Shown one piece after another: positions 6,600-21,055 of a DNA stretch of 33,367 nt. This DNA is from Podochytrium sp. JEL0797 (taxonomy: Eukaryota > Chytridiomycota > Chytridiomycetes > Chytridiales > Chytriomycetaceae): assembly GCA_027596195.1 (NCBI GenBank), contig JADGJG010000183.1, positions 1 through 33,367 on the forward strand, given 5' to 3'. The translations under genes and the position numbers were made by a program. Each line of letters begins with the position of its first letter. The stretch's first letter is position 1. Below the pieces are notes generated by a model, which made no database searches, had not been told where the DNA came from, and was given only the letters and a program-made list of their open reading frames with translations.

Positions 6600-8635
6600 A
6601 TGATTCATTCAATCATCCCCCGCCTTGTGCTCGCAACCGCTTGTTTGGCTCAACTTCAAACCGGAAACCTCTCTTGGATCTGGAACATCACAGAGATCCA
6701 AAGCATGGATGGAACCAACAACAACCTTCAAAATCCAACCCAAGGATCCGCCGGCGCACCCTACCTACAACCCAGACCATGGGAATACGGCCCGAATCAA
6801 TGTGAGATACAAACCAATTCTTTCAAATTCGACCCATCTCAAAACGCGTATAATAGCACCATTCAGACAAACCCGCCCCAACGCCCGCAACATCTCGAAC
6901 CTCCCCTTTGCCCAAAAACCATTCAACCAAAACACGGATTGCATCTCAGATTTCGTTCCCGATTGGGGAGTCATGCTTCATTTGGACATCACCGTCGCGC
7001 CCGGAAACTCTTGCGAGTTTACTGCAGTATGCATGGTTGTCAGCAACCCTCACAATCGAATATCACAGCGGACCCATTCCCCATCAACCGTCTCATCCAG
7101 GCAGGCCAGAGCGAATTTTGAAGATGGTCGGCCAGGATGCGTCAGAACAATTTCATGGTGGGCACGGCAGCGTGTCTCGGAAAGCAACAACCGTTTCTAG
7201 TACTGCATCGTCAATAAGGCGGAGGACACGCGGATCGATAGGTAGTAAATAAGAGACTGTATCATCAATTGCGATTGCTAGTCCAACCACAGATGGTCGG
7301 AAAGCCCCATAATTATTTGCGAATTCAAGCTAATCTTTCTCTCTGTACATTAGCGAAATTCCTTTTGGCGGGACTCGCTGTTGGAAAGCTGCGTGAAGAA
7401 AACGAAGGCGCCGCTGCTACCATATCCGGCAAAAGTGCAAAATCATACTGGTCCGAATCGATGCCAATGGGAAATCGAACAGAATCGTTTGGAGAAAAGC
7501 AGGTCCAGCCAATGTTGACAGAAAGATTCATCACGTTCGAACTAGACAAAAAAATTGCAATAACCGATCCCCATGACAAGTCTCCTGACTACAAATTTCG
7601 GTTTTTGTTTAAGAATCCAGAATCCGAGTTGCTGGTCAAATCAGGTGATTTGATTTTGTTTTGCACTTGAAACTCTTGGCGGGTTTAATTAATCACACGA
7701 AACTCAGGCCACAGCTTCATGCTTCAGTTTGCCGCCGAGGATGGTCAAATAGTCACCCTTTCTTGTTGGGGGTTCCAAAGTCACAGCAAAGGAGCCATTG
7801 AATTCAAGATCGAAATCCAGATTGGCGATGAATTCACACAATATCTCATGAGTTGCCAGTCGATTCGAATTCGCGGACCCATGCCTGATACAGGTGTGAC
7901 GAATCCATATACCGAAAATCGCTGTTGGAAGGTTTTGGGGCTGATCACAGAGGGTGCAGGGCTATCAGCTGCACTACTGGTTATTGATTACCATTTGAGG
8001 AACTGTAAACGTGACGCGATCATCAATCGCCCCTACTTTCACATTCATTTGCAGGCTTGTTTTACAAATGAGAACGACATTTTCGCTCAAAAAGAATTGG
8101 CTGATTTGGAGTCTAGTTCAAACGGTGAACTTGTCGTGACAACTCTTCTTGCTGTCAGTTTGACACGCAACTGCAATGGTCTGATTGGGGAGATCACCAG
8201 CGAGGTTTTGTTGGCAACTATGCCCAAGCCGAAGACAAACAGCCTAGCATAGCAAGTATGTAAATCGATAGATTGTATCTTCTTTTTAACTTTCAATAGG
8301 CCCAAGCGCCTTGTTGCATAACGGATTTCAAACGAACTCGGCGATTGACACAATTTTACGCGAGGATGGCCTTGTCAATCGCAGAGGTTCAAGCGGCAGC
8401 ACAGATGACAGATCCGTCCACTCTAAGTTGCCTATCTTAGCTGTCGAAAAATCGTTGGAATCAATGGAAGATTCAATGGCCATGATTGTCTGCGGGTCCG
8501 TCGAAAATTGAAACTAATTTCTCAAAATTTCTAATTTTGTATTATCGAATCTACAGGCCCACTAATACTCTCATTTTGGTGGGAGATATGCTTCAAGAGC
8601 TAGGATATCAGAAAGTATTTACTTTGAGCGCTTAA
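6600..8635 (+). pseudogene. Decayed, internally deleted copy of the peroxidase-b561-reductase gene
   Basis: Both ends match the intact gene downstream; the middle is missing. The 5' part (6600-6801, intron 6802-6856, exon from 6857) has a signal-peptide-like start, SMDGTNNNL, YGPNQ, RPNARNIS and DWGVMLHLDITV. It then stops matching at about 7026, so most of the peroxidase, all of DOMON and all of b561 are absent. A cytochrome b5 remnant (HPGRPERILKMVGQDASEQF) follows at about 7093-7240 in another frame that no obvious splice reaches. A reductase region (about 7284-8252, intron 7645-7707) keeps IRIRGP and LLVIDYHLRNC. However, the FAD motif seen as RSYTP in the intact copy reads LSCWGF, and the nucleotide motif GGTGITPML reads EGAGLSAAL. 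An in-frame TAG at 8250 precedes the next plausible donor. The last exons still encode MAMIVCG and GDMLQELGY, ending at 8635. An expressed truncated protein cannot be excluded. Confidence 0.7.
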
Positions 8636-8640
8636 ATTCG

Positions 8641-11600
8641 AAATTATACATTTTCCTTCTTTTGATCGCCACTTTATCGATCCCGAAACTGGTTGCGGGT
8701 CAGGTTGGGATAAACGAAACGCAGTCCTTTGACAGGACGCAGAACAATTTGCATTATCCCGCGCAAGGCGCGACCGGAGACGTATTTCTCAGGTTATTGG
8801 TCCCTCCTACATATGGCCCGAATCAATGTATGCGTCGGGGTATTTGAAGCCCAAATGCGTTGCTCACGTTCAATATTTAGCTCCCAACGGACAAAAGCGC
8901 CCAAATGCGAGACTTGTTTCAATTCGGCTCTTTGGCCAACCCAATCTCCTGGACAAACTCGCAACATCTGATCTCTTGCCTGCTTGGGGAGTTACCATAC
9001 ATTTGGATATCACTGTGGCGTTGAAGAATTCATGTTTGCATTTCAGTTTCGTGCTTTGCTTTCTAACCTATTTTTTTACTTAGCCGATTTATTGTATCAG
9101 TGTTTGACCCTGATTTTGATCCGTTCGAAACAAACTCTTCCCAAATTCCCATGAGTCGAGCAAATTACATTGGCGTCAATTCCGCAACCAACGAAAGGCT
9201 GATTCCGAATGCTTTCACTTGCTACATTGACGGAAGTGGCTTATACGGAAATTCTTTAGCCGCATTGAATTCTATGAGACTGTATAAAGGAGGATTGCTA
9301 AAGAGTTTCAATTCTCCCACTGGAGAATATCCACCGCGCGTGGTTGGGGGGCCATACGATGGATTCTTCGAATATTCTATTCCAAGTGTCAACATTGCAG
9401 CAGTAAGACGCGTTTTTTATTGGCTCTTCCAATTAGTATTGAGGGTTCTTTGTAGCAAACTCTGATACCGTACCTCCTGTTTTTCCGAGAGCACAATCGC
9501 CGCGCGAGATTACTGAGTGTCAGACATCCTGCTTGGAATGATGAAAAGTTATTTCAGAGATCGAGACGCTGGGTTATCGCGATAATACAAAGGAATACCA
9601 TCGATTTTGTGAGTCGTTTTGTTGTCGTTTCAAAATTAAGATCAAGAAAAATAGTACGTTCCAACCGTCACCGGGGGTCCATTGCCACCATATTCTGGGT
9701 ATAAACCAAACGTGAATCCTCAAATCGATCTGTTTTTTTCCCAAGTCGCATTTATCTATGGCCACAGTGGTCTGAACGAGGAAATTCTGCGAATCAACGA
9801 TGCGGGAGAACCAATTCCCGCAGGACATCTCCTACTTCGAGACGGATCATTCAAAAACTTGTGTGATGAAGTGATTGCACAAGGTATTGATCCCATATTG
9901 CGCGGGTTTCTCGTTCAACGGGAAAACCAAATCGACACGAAAATTGTCGACGATGTGCGAAACAGCCTTCCTCTGAACCCAGGATTTAATTTCGACTTGG
10001 TGGCCATCGGGATTCAAAGAGGACGTGACTTGGGAATGGCGGACTACAATACTTTTCGAAAAGCATATAATATGACGCCGGCTGTTCGTTGGAGCGATAT
10101 AACCAACGATACCGATGTCCAGGCAATTCTGAATGATTTGTATCCAGACATAAATGACCTGGACGCGAGTGTTGGTAATGGATATTAGTGGAATCTATAT
10201 GAATCTCACAGCTATTTATGCAGGCACGTTTGCGGAAGACCCATCTTCAGCCAATTTAATGGTTGGGCCCCTCACTGCCGCGTCAATTCGGGAGCAGTTT
10301 CAGAGACTCAGAGATGGCGATCGATTCTGGTGGCAAAATCCAGGCGTGCTAACCGCAGAGGATCTAGCGGATTTTAGCTCATTCAGCCTGGGCCAAATGG
10401 TTATCGCAAACACCCAAATCAAATTTTATCCCGACAACGCTTTTGTTGCAGTGAATTCAAGCCTCCAGTTCTTTTTGAATGGTCCATCGAGTCACATTTA
10501 TCAAAATACATCCCTCGATTTCGTTGAAGTTCTTGGAAACTTGAGATTGGCATGGAATATCACGGAAGCTGACTCAATGATTCATTTCACATTCGAATCG
10601 AATGGTACCGGTTGGTTTGGCTTTGGATTTGGATCAAATATGTTGGGTGCCGATATTTATTTATGCAATGACTTCAACAATACCAATATTTTCGGGGTTC
10701 AAGATTCGTGGAGGTGTGTGTCTTTATGAATCTTTTACTCACACAATATTGATGATTATTTTAGTTCAAACACACAGCCTGTTCCGAGCGACGTCAGCCA
10801 AGGCGGAATCGACAACGTCATTAACCCTCGCGACATAACATCATTTCAAAATTATTCAAAGCGTGTCGTTACATTCTCGCGGAAGTTATCCACTGGAGAT
10901 ACATTCGACGTTGATATCGTCGCTCGGCAGATGGACATGATTTTCGCGTTCTCTGAAACCACTGTACTGACGTGGCACGGATCCCTCAACCGCGTGCATA
11001 CAACCATCAATTTTTATGCTTCAACATCCAGCATCACTCCCATCCCAGGATACTCATCTCTCGGCTCCCTCCTGATTCTACACAGCATCTCAATGTACAT
11101 TGCTTTCACGATTCTGTTTCCCCTGGGAATCTACGTTGCCCGTTACTACCGTAATCTAGGCCGTTGGCTATCAATCCACACCTCGCTCCTCACATCTATT
11201 ACTTCAAACGTGATTGTCGCCGCTCTAACAGCCATCATTGGAACTTTTGGAAACCCAAACTCTCTGCACTACAAAATCGGAATGGCCGTGATTATCCTTG
11301 TGAGCATATCCTCGATCGCCGGTTATTGCGCAACCAAGTTGCACTTGTTCAACCATAGCTGGAGCTACCTCGCATCAGTTTGCCGTCAGGTTCACAAATA
11401 TTCCGGATTTCTCGCCTACGTTGTGGGACTTGTCGATTGTTATTTTGGAGTAGGAGAAATTAGCCCCGACAGTCCATACACCATCTATCTTCAAATCATA
11501 TTCCTCGTGTCCGCAATTCTGCCCCCCGTCTGTCTCTTTGCATACGGAGAAAGTCAGAAAAAGATGCATTTCCTTTCAAAAGATATGATGGGGTTGAACA

Positions 11601-13234
11601 ATTTGCCATCCTTCCGCTGGGAGGACGTGAATCACCGAGTTTCTCTCGGAGCAAAGTGGATTGTGATTGACGAAGTTATATGTAAGGGATAGAAAGAAAG
11701 CGGACCACCTGTAGTATTTAACCGAACAAACGACAACACAGACGACGTTCAAAAATACATGGACTGCCACCCCGGCGGCTCACACGCACTCCAACAAATG
11801 ATTGGAATCGATGCCGCCTTCGCCTTTAACAATACCATCCCACCCACGAAACCCATGTCATACCTCACGAACGGATCGTCGTCCCACACGGGAACCTTGA
11901 AATCCGATACCCTCAACTGGAGAGACGAAAAGCTAAATCAACTGATGCACAGTCACTCGAGATATGCGCGAAACCTACTCTCCACATTCGCGATGGGAAC
12001 TCTCAAAGACCATGAACAGAAACACCCGAACCAAAACGAAGGCTCGAAACCCACTGACATTTGCGTCCACAAGTTTGCCCACTACATCATAAGCAGTAAA
12101 ATCCTCATCACGAACCCCAACGCTCGTCACCCCGTATACCTTTTCCGAATTGCTTTTGAAGACGACCAAGCAACCATCCAATCAAAACCTGGCGATTCGT
12201 ACCTCTTTCAATTTGTTGATGATGACGGCCGCATGATTAGCCGATCATACACTCCCATCAAGATGGAATCGAAAGGATTCCTTGAATTCATGATAAAAAT
12301 GTATAATGGGGAGATGACACACTACCTGAATTACGCCAAGTCCGTGAGAATACGTGGCCCCATCCCGCGAATTGATTTAATTAATCCATACTCTGACACG
12401 GGATGTTGGAAAACATTGGGTTTAATCGCAGGAGGGACTGGTAATGCCACTTTTTTGAAACACTTGATTGTCTCAAAGTCCACCTGCTAAAAAAACAAGT
12501 AGGTATAACCCCTATGCTCCTCCTTATAGACTACCACCTCAAAAACTGCCATCGTGATCCAATCACAAACCAACCCAACTTTAGCATCCACCTCCTGTTC
12601 GCGAACCTCGACGAAACGAGCATCTTTGCTGAAAAGGAGATTGCTGAGCTAGAAGCGCAAGGAAACGGCGCCATCACGGTCACCTACATCATCAGCAGCA
12701 TCAACAATGAAAGCACAAAATTCGATGGCCTGTTGGGCAGAATCAGTCCGGAGGTGATTGTCGCCACTATGCCGAAACCACAAGTCATCAAAAAGGGCCC
12801 TGCCAGTCATGCCGGGTCGTCTCCATATGGAACTCTACCTCATTCAGTGTCCAACAGTTTACTGCGGGCTCGAGGAAAACCTGCAAATTTCGGCGACAGA
12901 GATGGTAAAACCCGAACCTCCCTTTCAGATAAAGCCATTTTTGATACATCCACCAGACTATTCCATTCAATCAAAAAAAGGGAAACCCCAGACTCCTGCA
13001 ACCATCCTCAAACCCGTCTTAGAACTGGACTCCAAACCGATTCTAACTCCACCCGCGCGAGACTCAGAGTCTTCATCGATTCGTTCCAGCGGTGTAATGG
13101 GGGGTGGCGATATGGATCGCGAAAATGAAGAGGCGGCGAATATGGCCATCATAGTTTGCGGGCCGATCCTCATGAACGTGACTGTGGGAGATATGTTGCG
13201 GAATCTTGGATACACCAATATTTTAACCGCTTGA
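8641..13234 (+). CDS. Haem peroxidase-DOMON-cytochrome b561-cytochrome b5-cytochrome b5 reductase fusion
   Basis: Predicted transmembrane electron carrier linking cytosolic NAD(P)H to an extracellular peroxidase-like domain. Exons: 8641-8827, 8881-9045, 9101-9402, 9456-9608, 9655-10174, 10212-10713, 10765-11681, 11742-12440, 12503-12904 and 12957-13234. Every phase closes, giving about 1,370 residues. Order, with residues counted from about 8662: signal-like hydrophobic start; DUOX-like peroxidase (20-510) with YIDGSGLYG, FFREHNRRAR, IYGHSGLNEE and QRGRDLGMADYN; DOMON (540-690) with GWFGFGFGSNMLGADIYL; b561 (700-875) with multiple membrane helices and His in LILHSISM, LSIHTSL, NSLHYKIG and QVHKYSG; b5 remnant with HPGG (about 915); reductase (1015-1367) with RSYTPIK, IRGPIPR, AGGTGITPML and VCGP, split by a roughly 100-residue low-complexity insert. 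No in-frame ATG precedes the hydrophobic start, so the 5' end is unresolved. The stop lies 31 bp from the convergent gene at 13266. Confidence 0.9.
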
Positions 13235-19364: not shown

Positions 19365-21055
19365 ATGGCGCCCATTCCAATGGAAATCAACTCCTTCACG
19401 TGGATCTTCGTGGTCACACTCATGTTCGCATTTCTTGATGCCTATGCAATCGGTAAGATATTTGATTCAGTCCATTGGACTTGCTAGGTCTAATGTATTA
19501 TTTCGAACCAGGTGCCAACGACGTCGCCAACTCGTTCGCCACTTCAGTCGGGTCTCGTTCCCTCAAACTTTGGCAAGCATGCTGCATTGCCGTATTCACT
19601 GAGTTCATCGGAGCTGTGGCTTTAGGTGCCTCCACTGCGGGAACTATCAAGGATGGAATCATCACCCTGTCTTTGTTTGACACGCGTCAAGATCTCCTCA
19701 TGAGCGCGTTCATGTGTGCTCTCATTGGTTCCTCCTGCTGGGTCATGTTTGCCACAAAACAAGGATGGCCCGTCTCGACCACACACTCCATCGTCGGTGC
19801 CCTCATCGGTGTCGGAATCTCTGCTTTCGGAACTGGTGCCGTCAACTGGGGTTGGGACAACAAGGGTGTCGCTCAAATTGTTTCCTCGTGGATTCTTTCT
19901 CCTATCCTCGCGGGTTGTATTGCGGTGACTGTGTACGGTCTTACCCGCAAGTTTGTGTTCCAAGCCAAGAACCCCCTCCGTGCCGGAATCTACGCCATCC
20001 CCTTCTACTTCACCATCACCACCTTCATCGTCTCCTTCTTTGTCGTCTCCAAGAACGGTAAATCCACTCTCAAGATCACTGCCGCCGACTTTGGTTCCCC
20101 GTTGGTGGTCAAGGGCGACCTCGCTCTGTGCATGGCCATTGTTGGTGGAATTACCGGCTTCGTACTCCTGTTCTGCCTTGTCTGCGTCGTTCCGTTCTTT
20201 ATCCGCAAGCTCGAGAAGGAGGAGGACCTCAAGTCGCATCAAATCTTCTACATCTTTGCGGTTCCCACTCAGGCCAAGAGCTTGACTCTCGACTACGACT
20301 TGACAAAGCAGTTTACTCCCCACCTTTTGACTGACGAAAAGGAAGTCCCTGTCGTTGCGGAGCCCGAGCTTGAGTACAAGAGCGCCATTGACTACGTCAA
20401 GAACCCGATCATTGGAACGTACCGCCTTGCCATGAAGGGTCTGTTCATGGATGTTGCCTCTGTCCAGTCTGATCACGCCCACGAGGCCCACGCTCACGCC
20501 ACCCTTTACGACAACAAGGTTGAATACCTCTTCTCTTACCTTCAAGTCATGACTGCCGCTTTCGCCTCCTTCAGTCACGGTTCCAACGACGTTGCCAACG
20601 CAATTGGACCCTTGGCTGCCGTGTTCGAGCTCTGGAGCAAGGGTTCCGTTTCCAAGAACGCGGACGTTCAAATTTGGATGTTGGCGATGGGTGGTATTGC
20701 CATCGACATGGGACTCGCGTTCTACGGCTGGAGAGTCATGATCAACCTCGGAAACAACCTCACCTACCACTCCCCATCGCGCGGATTCTCGATGGAACTC
20801 GGTGCCGCCATAGCTGTTGTGACTGCGTCGTTCCTCGCCCTCCCCGTGTCCACCACCCAGTGCATTGTCGGTGCCACTGTTGGCGTCGGTCTCATGAACG
20901 GAACTGCAAAAGCAATCAACTGGAAAATGGTCTCATGGACTCTGTTCTCGTGGTTTTTGACTCTTCCTGTCGCTGGAATTAGCTCGGGTCTGTTGTTTGC
21001 GATTTTCACGCGTGGACCCAGTTTCGCGACCATTCCAAGCGCACCAGCAGCTTAA
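19365..21055 (+). CDS. PiT-family inorganic phosphate transporter (Pho-4/Pho89/SLC20 type)
   Basis: Cation-coupled phosphate permease of the plasma membrane. Exons 19365-19452 and 19512-21055, intron 59 nt, phase 1, giving 543 residues, normal for the family. The two inverted PiT signature repeats are complete: GANDVANSFATSVGSRSL near the N-terminus, completed across the intron, and GSNDVANAIGPLAAVF near residue 370. Each is followed by its partner helix motif, GWPVSTTHSIVGALIGVG and ALPVSTTQCIVGATVGVG. About ten to twelve membrane helices are visible, with one large hydrophilic loop between the halves (about 245-355) that includes a His-rich HAHEAHAHA stretch. Start context CCAAAATG. A TATA box and a CACGTG site lie upstream. 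Na+ rather than H+ coupling is likely from the family but not visible. Confidence 0.96.

Follow-up and report, generated by a model that had tools for sequence, protein, structure and literature searches.

A predicted chytrid protein joining a peroxidase-fold head to DOMON, b561, b5 and b5-reductase modules: a candidate electron exporter without a NOX core

The locus described here raises the question whether one chytrid gene can encode a whole electron-exporting chain, from a cytosolic reductase to a peroxidase-fold head, and what such a chain would act on. The gene occupies positions 8639 to 13234 of the forward strand in a 33,367-base contig of Podochytrium sp. JEL0797 (Chytridiales; a chytrid of Chytriomycetaceae); we refer to this whole stretch as the window. 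Electron export at the cell surface is usually framed in terms of NOX and DUOX enzymes, ferric reductases and ascorbate-driven b561 proteins. A preliminary description had read the gene as a dual-oxidase analogue; its observations were partly confirmed and its interpretation is partly supported. We consider the predicted protein to be a trans-membrane electron exporter driven by NAD(P)H (reduced nicotinamide adenine dinucleotide or its phosphate), with a peroxidase-fold head and no NOX core, and we give this reading a probability of roughly 0.55. Oxygen or peroxide is the end point that we favour, as a tentative branch of it. The probabilities behind our wording of the rival readings overlap and need not sum to one.

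We obtained a spliced frame open over 1,370 codons plus the stop, in ten exons with nine GT-AG introns, which bears out the single frame of about 1,370 codons described before. In this model, which is our own, GT-AG ends that keep the frame are possible for 9/9 introns, with competing solutions at intron 2. The exons in the window are as follows.

8639..8827, + strand: exon 1, opening with a hydrophobic, signal-like stretch and leading into the peroxidase domain; no initiator found, N-terminus resembling that of the relative P0001
8881..9045, + strand: exon 2, peroxidase; its distal motif, WGVTIHLD at 8985-9008, is altered; 3' end uncertain (9033-9045)
9101..9402, + strand: exon 3; 5' end uncertain (9084 or 9101)
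9456..9608, + strand: exon 4, REHNR region
9655..10174, + strand: exon 5, proximal haem His at 9763-9765 in FIYGHS (9751-9768)
10224..10713, + strand: exon 6, end of the peroxidase and first DOMON part, haem Met in NMLGAD (10637-10654)
10765..11681, + strand: exon 7, second DOMON part (haem His in TWHGS, 10970-10984), the four-His cytochrome b561 and the beginning of b5
11742..12440, + strand: exon 8, cytochrome b5 (His at 11768 and 11954), flavin adenine dinucleotide (FAD) domain with RSYTP at 12242-12256, start of the NAD motif; acceptor set by homology
12503..12904, + strand: exon 9, NAD-binding domain (GGTGITP, split by the intron between GGTG and ITP), start of a low-complexity insert
12957..13234, + strand: exon 10, remainder of the insert, C-terminal VCGP at 13154-13165, stop TGA

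For intron 7 our first choice was 11682-11714. It was dropped, since homology favours 11682-11741, which yields VIYDVQ as in P0121 (the GenBank model of the gene) and P0001. The exon 10 acceptor lies inside the insert, where the GenBank model takes a different one. The reductase motifs RSYTP, GGTGITP and VCGP, named beforehand, were located in exons 8 to 10.

All six expected Pfam domains were detected in the spliced product, in the order An_peroxidase, DOMON, Cytochrom_B561, Cyt-b5, FAD_binding_6 and NAD_binding_1. The proposed order of peroxidase, DOMON, b561, b5 and reductase therefore agrees with the Pfam coordinates. An_peroxidase (E 1e-95) spans 8722..10441 (+) with introns included, DOMON (E 6e-16) spans 10535..10951 (+), Cyt-b5 (E 1.6e-7) spans 11618..11857 (+), and FAD_binding_6 (E 6e-8) together with NAD_binding_1 (E 6e-9) spans 12128..12759 (+); each of the last three spans holds one internal intron. 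Cytochrom_B561 (E 4e-4; core 11078..11452 (+)) reached 21.0 bits, 2 bits below its cut-off of 23, which was exceeded in the relatives P0001 and P0025. As in CYBDOM proteins, the window has a DOMON whose haem pair is Met/His, and behind it a b561 that carries four His. The b5 domain had been called a remnant. We observed that it is intact, with both haem His present (in HPGG at 11768 and HSRYA at 11954), and that the b5 and reductase motifs of the window are complete (two b5 His, RxYT, GGxGxxP and CGP). Compared with solved structures, the C-terminal part matched cytochromes b5 and NADH-cytochrome b5 reductases. No ferric-reductase domain or FAD_binding_8 was matched by Pfam in the window and the relatives tested, and no EF-hand family in the window (at E 1) or in 7 relatives (at 0.01). 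NAD_binding_6 was below its cut-off in the window (16.9 bits vs 22.2) and just over it in P0001 (23.5).

From the peroxidase core through to the C-terminus, the chain is confirmed. Chance or the stitching of frames is excluded for this core by the Pfam matches and by P0001, the closest full-length relative among those listed, which is 65% identical over 98% of the model. Further, we inspected 120 listed relatives of 191 found by protein search, with domains taken from precomputed Pfam matches. An_peroxidase, DOMON, Cyt-b5 and FAD_binding_6 occurred in one chain in 23 of them, all predictions and one marked partial. Their sources are 18 fungi and one green alga, together 19 named species or strains. 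The fungal carriers include Chytridiomycota (Cladochytrium) and the Blastocladiomycota Sorochytrium and Paraphysoderma; the alga is Cymbomonas. The full order, of which the preliminary description knew no described example, is therefore not unique. Pfam coordinates gave the order in P0001, P0004, P0014, P0025 and P0035, and the alignment gave it in the others; P0004 gave no b561 or NAD match, and B561 was below the cut-off in P0014 and P0035. Since P0035, from the green alga Cymbomonas tetramitiformis, repeats this order, its DOMON occurring as two stretches, the fusion would be either very old or transferred.

Among the literature matches listed (Creative Commons-licensed papers in PubMed Central, PMC), no title or abstract start described a peroxidase-DOMON-b561-b5-reductase fusion; the family is conserved and apparently undescribed. 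A profile search with the C-terminal part gave 7 proteins, none of them a clear peroxidase-free DOMON-b561-b5-reductase apart from split or partial models; scoring was limited to the 7,996 candidates with the most words in common, and the search does not show that peroxidase-free forms are absent.

We counted the ligands of the putative electron relay in 34 rows of the alignment (the window, P0001-P0032 and P0034), scoring each site only in those rows where the alignment has a letter. Not among the 34 are Rhizophagus P0041 and five algal or metagenome rows, which were treated separately. The DOMON haem ligands were Met in 32/32 and His in 30/30 rows. The four b561 His, until now candidates, were conserved in 31/31, 31/31, 32/32 and 28/29 rows, and each of the two b5 His in 33/33.

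The reductase sites were more varied. In P0032 and P0034 the FAD and NAD positions, which seem to be misaligned or cut short, entered the counts unaltered. Among the type-B and related rows, 21 in all, the FAD Thr was kept in 19/20, the first NAD Gly in 18/19 and the NAD Pro in 15/19, and in the 8 rows of a clade that keeps its peroxidase site the respective counts were 6/8, 0/7 (mostly Ala) and 5/7. The type-A rows (P0004, P0006, P0008, P0009, P0020) kept the haem ligands wherever letters were present, and had Trp for the FAD Thr, Glu or Asp for the first NAD Gly and Ala or Gly for the NAD Pro (5/5 each), suggesting that type A may be a reductase-poor partner or a user of another donor. The altered first NAD Gly is by itself no proof of a dead type-A site, because non-Gly residues are also found in the site-keeping clade. 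Type A is marked more clearly by the change of the FAD Thr to Trp and by the missing NAD Pro.

Peroxidase-site counts likewise covered only rows with letters, with P0020 omitted (under 250 residues). The window has V, L, S and G at the distal Gln, His and Arg and the proximal-side Asn. It keeps the proximal haem His, at what we take to be position 336 of MPO. The window belongs to a group of 29 rows in which the site was lost, four of them assigned by letters and similarity and not by tree: the distal His was kept in 0/25, Gln in 0/24, Arg in 0/27 and Asn in 2/29, and the proximal His in 28/28. The position preceding the lost distal His is His in 24/25 of these rows vs Asp in 19/19 aligned bacterial rows. 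In the site-keeping fungal clade (8 rows), Arg, Asn and proximal His were present in 8/8, distal Gln in 5/5 and distal His in 4/5. Both the distal Gln and the distal His are kept in Sorochytrium P0021 and P0025, Cladochytrium P0030 and Borealophlyctis P0028; Cladochytrium carries one of each kind, the site-lost P0014 and the site-keeping P0030. Bacterial rows had distal Gln and His in 19/20 (P0058 was not aligned there) and Arg and Asn in 20/20.

Judged by these residues, the site of the window is not a normal peroxidase site. With the distal residues lost, although the proximal His was kept, the head in the window's clade is unlikely to be a working peroxidase. This bears on a rival explanation, in which the protein is an NADH-fed extracellular peroxidase removing H2O2, its DOMON haem reducing the intermediates in the manner of a tethered cytochrome c peroxidase. 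Such a role would suit the 8-row clade, where Arg, Asn and proximal His are complete and where P0021, P0025, P0030 and P0028 retain distal Gln and His too. The window's clade, lacking distal His, Arg and Gln, would need another mechanism, and we consider the explanation unlikely.

The relation of the head to DUOX was assessed by fold and by trees. By sequence and by fold, the solved peroxidases nearest to the relative P0012 are cyanobacterial 8s6c and Dictyostelium PoxA 6erc, followed by DUOX1; the AlphaFold model of P0012, which comprises peroxidase, DOMON and the start of b561, had a predicted local distance difference test (pLDDT) value of 86.1, and its fold matched peroxidases and DUOX1. 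In a 71-row tree the two fungal groups formed separate clades (25 rows, 100/100; 8 rows, 98/87), the fungal family as a whole held together at 99/77, three algae stood next to it (100/96), and DUOX formed a separate clade (100/97). P0007, P0016, P0019, P0027, P0074, P0064, P0045, P0224, P0070 and P0153 were left out of this tree, and P0033 was cut to its first 520 residues. We read it at first as placing the peroxidase domain plainly far from DUOX, and dropped that reading after two trees from which the longest rows were omitted. In both, DUOX and the family lay on the same side of a branch, which had a support of 97/98 in the 50-row tree and of 100/98 in the 41-row tree, where the family was represented only by site-keeping members and algae. 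These are trees of chosen rows, with other eukaryotic peroxidases thinly sampled. In approximately unbiased (AU) tests, neither DUOX with bacteria (p = 0.26) nor DUOX with peroxidasin/MPO (p = 0.29) was rejected. The peroxidase heads of DUOX and of the chytrid family may be sisters; because the AU tests do not reject other placements of DUOX, this relation is neither proved nor disproved. The label "DUOX-like" given to the peroxidase holds for its fold and, weakly, for the tree, and fails for the distal catalytic residues, which are absent. The membrane halves belong to different families, and for them a convergent origin is plausible.

The favoured mechanism of the exporter would run as follows. 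Cytosolic NADH (or NADPH) would reduce the FAD of the b5-reductase-type domain, and electrons from FAD would pass to the tethered cytochrome b5. From there, with haem presumed at the conserved ligands, they would cross the membrane through two b561 haems to an outward-facing DOMON haem, which would hand them to an acceptor (oxygen, peroxide or metal) at or near the peroxidase-fold head. Topology and direction of flow are predictions, as is the donor; NAD(P)H seems likelier than ascorbate, because a reductase is built into the chain. Where the site was lost, the head would be a docking, shielding or electron-accepting module, likelier than a working peroxidase and comparable to the peroxidase-homology domain of DUOX. 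Where the site is kept, the head may take electrons directly, reducing or using H2O2. The path from FAD through b5, b561 and DOMON to a peroxidase-like site, as proposed earlier, fits the conserved ligands; at its end, however, it does not meet the site of a normal peroxidase. Oxygen or peroxide chemistry is hinted at by the peroxidase head, and metal reduction by the activity of CYBDOM proteins.

Several points weigh against the exporter, which is predicted here from sequences and structure models. The whole-chain AlphaFold model, P0029, is modest (pLDDT 77.5, predicted template modelling score 0.50), and glycosylation sequons are denser before than after b561 in only 11/15 rows, two of them by a hair, which is weak support for the topology. 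Rhizophagus P0041 has peroxidase, DOMON, FAD and NAD matches and neither a b5 or b561 match nor HPGG; its four b561 His align despite the absent Pfam match. Further points concern the end point, the gene models and the 5' end, and each of them brings in a rival explanation.

As to the end point, the available part of one source (PMC10784544) presents the Arabidopsis CYBDOM protein HYP1 as an ascorbate-driven trans-membrane electron carrier. Its modelled haem ligands are the DOMON Met/His pair and the four b561 His, and the proposed route leads electrons from ascorbate by way of two b561 haems to the DOMON haem. This b561/DOMON protein reduces ferric and cupric substrates, and no oxygen test was found in that part of the source. 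The chytrid protein may likewise be a surface metalloreductase, in which a b5-reductase takes the place of ascorbate in a CYBDOM-type ferric/cupric reductase and the head serves as scaffold or chelate-binding lid. The clade of the window, which lost the peroxidase site yet kept the cytochrome ligands, would fit this well. For a mere lid, however, it is hard to explain why site-lost rows keep the fold and the proximal His (28/28), or why a separate clade keeps Arg and Asn (8/8) and distal His (4/5). We regard a metalloreductase as possible, and doubtful on balance.

As to the gene models, the GenBank model of the window gene (P0121, HDU98_003734, 626 residues; 100% identity over 65% of the query) starts mid-DOMON and leaves out part of the reductase, and thus splits the chain. 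The chain is also split in the models of two other species, Rhizoclosmatium (P0127 and P0122) and Chytriomyces MP71 (P0126 and P0124), where the halves within each pair are listed on equally long contigs. These models would agree with an artefact in which a secreted peroxidase gene was joined to a neighbouring gene for a DOMON-b561-b5 reductase. However, the C-terminal pieces P0121, P0122 and P0124 start inside DOMON, unlike separate genes, and therefore the split models point to annotation error. Taken with the 23 listed relatives predicted as one chain with at least four domains, and with the 65% identity of the closest one over 98%, this makes a two-gene artefact highly improbable.

As to the 5' end, the window copy has neither a settled start nor a settled exon 2/3 junction. 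Between exon 1 and the stop at 8563-8565, no ATG shares the frame of the signal-like segment. A script gave 30 paper solutions for an upstream first exon, with donors (GTCCAC, GTTGCC, GTCTGC, GTCCGT, GTCGAA) that were all poor. Of the signal-like start described earlier, the hydrophobic segment resembling the N-terminus of P0001 stands, and an in-frame initiator is missing. In 5/5 relatives inspected, a slightly varied SDPFPIPVP-like segment sits before FDPDFDP; none of the three exon 2/3 junction solutions that we tried regained it in the window copy. The neighbouring feature on the upstream side is the following.

6600..8635, + strand: broken tandem paralogue of type A, ending a few bases (5) upstream of the exon 1 segment

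Its pieces (6636-6803, 6856-7017, 7082-7159, 7350-8234 and 8561-8626) comprise a signal and the peroxidase N-terminus, followed directly by b5 and reductase parts; peroxidase core, DOMON and b561 are absent, with the gap at about 7017 to 7082. The long piece shares 58% identity with P0008, 52% with P0004 and 37% with P0001. Because there is no in-frame ATG, the exon 2/3 junction is unsettled and a broken paralogue adjoins, the 5' end of the window copy may be damaged or misassembled; the family itself is firm. The same three signs (the missing ATG, the segment before FDPDFDP that was not regained, the broken type-A neighbour) would also be expected of a decaying gene in a real family, no longer making the full protein. 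Against decay stand 1,370 codons open over ten exons, with the b561, b5, DOMON, FAD and NAD motifs intact, and we hold it for a tentative explanation only. Elsewhere in the window, a PHO4-family phosphate transporter was found at 19466-21052 (E 2.7e-118).

The preliminary description had also proposed that the NOX half of a DUOX was replaced convergently. A b561/b5-reductase-type membrane half is indeed present instead of a NOX core, but replacement of NOX in Podochytrium is not supported. Contig C151 (L010) carries two tandem ferric-reductase-domain genes with the 13/12 His spacing of the DUOX P0095, so replacement is not shown. Only 19-27% identical to DUOX, they are NOX candidates by their spacing. 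A DUOX query run exon by exon against the genome matched only these C151 genes and peroxidase loci. In the available part of a published work (PMC9421330), NOXA and NOXB are reported across fungal phyla, with Rhizoclosmatium having NOXB only.

Two further animal-type peroxidase loci were found in the genome. One, L008 on contig C112 (about 91,300-92,550 of the contig), is a separate long open frame; it encodes a hydrophobic segment and an animal-type peroxidase in which GQFVSHD and GDQRATE are retained. The third animal-type peroxidase locus, L009 on contig C258 (2926-4455), is about 22-26% identical to the family members compared.

A wider reading may be put forward tentatively. Fungi and green algae would hold a second, NOX-independent dual oxidase, in which the eukaryotic peroxidase lineage of the DUOX head was joined to DOMON, b561, b5 and b5 reductase; the distal site would have been lost in one large chytrid clade, as in DUOX, and kept in another fungal clade, and type A, which has the haem ligands and an altered FAD/NAD site, may partner type B. 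On this reading the family would preserve the states before and after the change from peroxidase to peroxidase-homology domain, because one clade lost the site and another kept it. The site-keeping and site-lost clades are natural material for the question why DUOX kept a peroxidase fold that is often unable to act. If the exporter is real, a single self-contained chain would give zoosporic fungi a different route, at the cell surface, for producing or clearing reactive oxygen or for reducing metals.

Compared with known systems, the chain resembles each of them in part. It shares the first three modules, in the same order, with Tetradesmus P0071, a green algal protein with peroxidase, DOMON and b561 only and no b5 or reductase match. 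Bacterial members of the peroxidase-cyclooxygenase superfamily and Dictyostelium PoxA are the closest solved peroxidases of P0012; the bacterial proteins keep the distal site and have no b561, b5 or reductase family in their precomputed Pfam lists. With cytochrome b5 and NADH-cytochrome b5 reductase the chain shares HPGG and the second His and the RxYT, GGxGxxP and CG motifs; it differs in having b561 and two predicted extracellular domains in front and a long insert before the last motif. CYBDOM proteins (Arabidopsis HYP1, CRR) have the same DOMON Met/His pair and four b561 His, the HYP1 residues being those given in the part of PMC10784544 cited above. The chytrid chain adds a peroxidase head and has its b5 and NAD(P)H reductase built in, whereas HYP1 uses ascorbate (same source).

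The likeness to DUOX1/2 lies in an N-terminal ectodomain of An_peroxidase fold on a trans-membrane, NAD(P)H-driven haem chain, the latter being predicted in the chytrid protein. The distal His is missing in 7/7 DUOX rows, as in the window's group. The other site residues differ: DUOX keeps the distal Arg in 5/7 rows vs 0/27, and the proximal His in 4/7 vs 28/28. In human DUOX1, according to the available part of PMC7794343, the haem-ligand His of the peroxidase domain is missing and the structure shows no haem density there. The chytrid chain has no match to a NOX core or EF-hand, and in their place carries b561, b5 and a b5-reductase-type module, with DOMON between these and the head. The arrangement, found in many zoosporic fungi and in one green alga, resembles an independently assembled counterpart of the animal enzymes producing H2O2 at the cell surface, with a putative activity.

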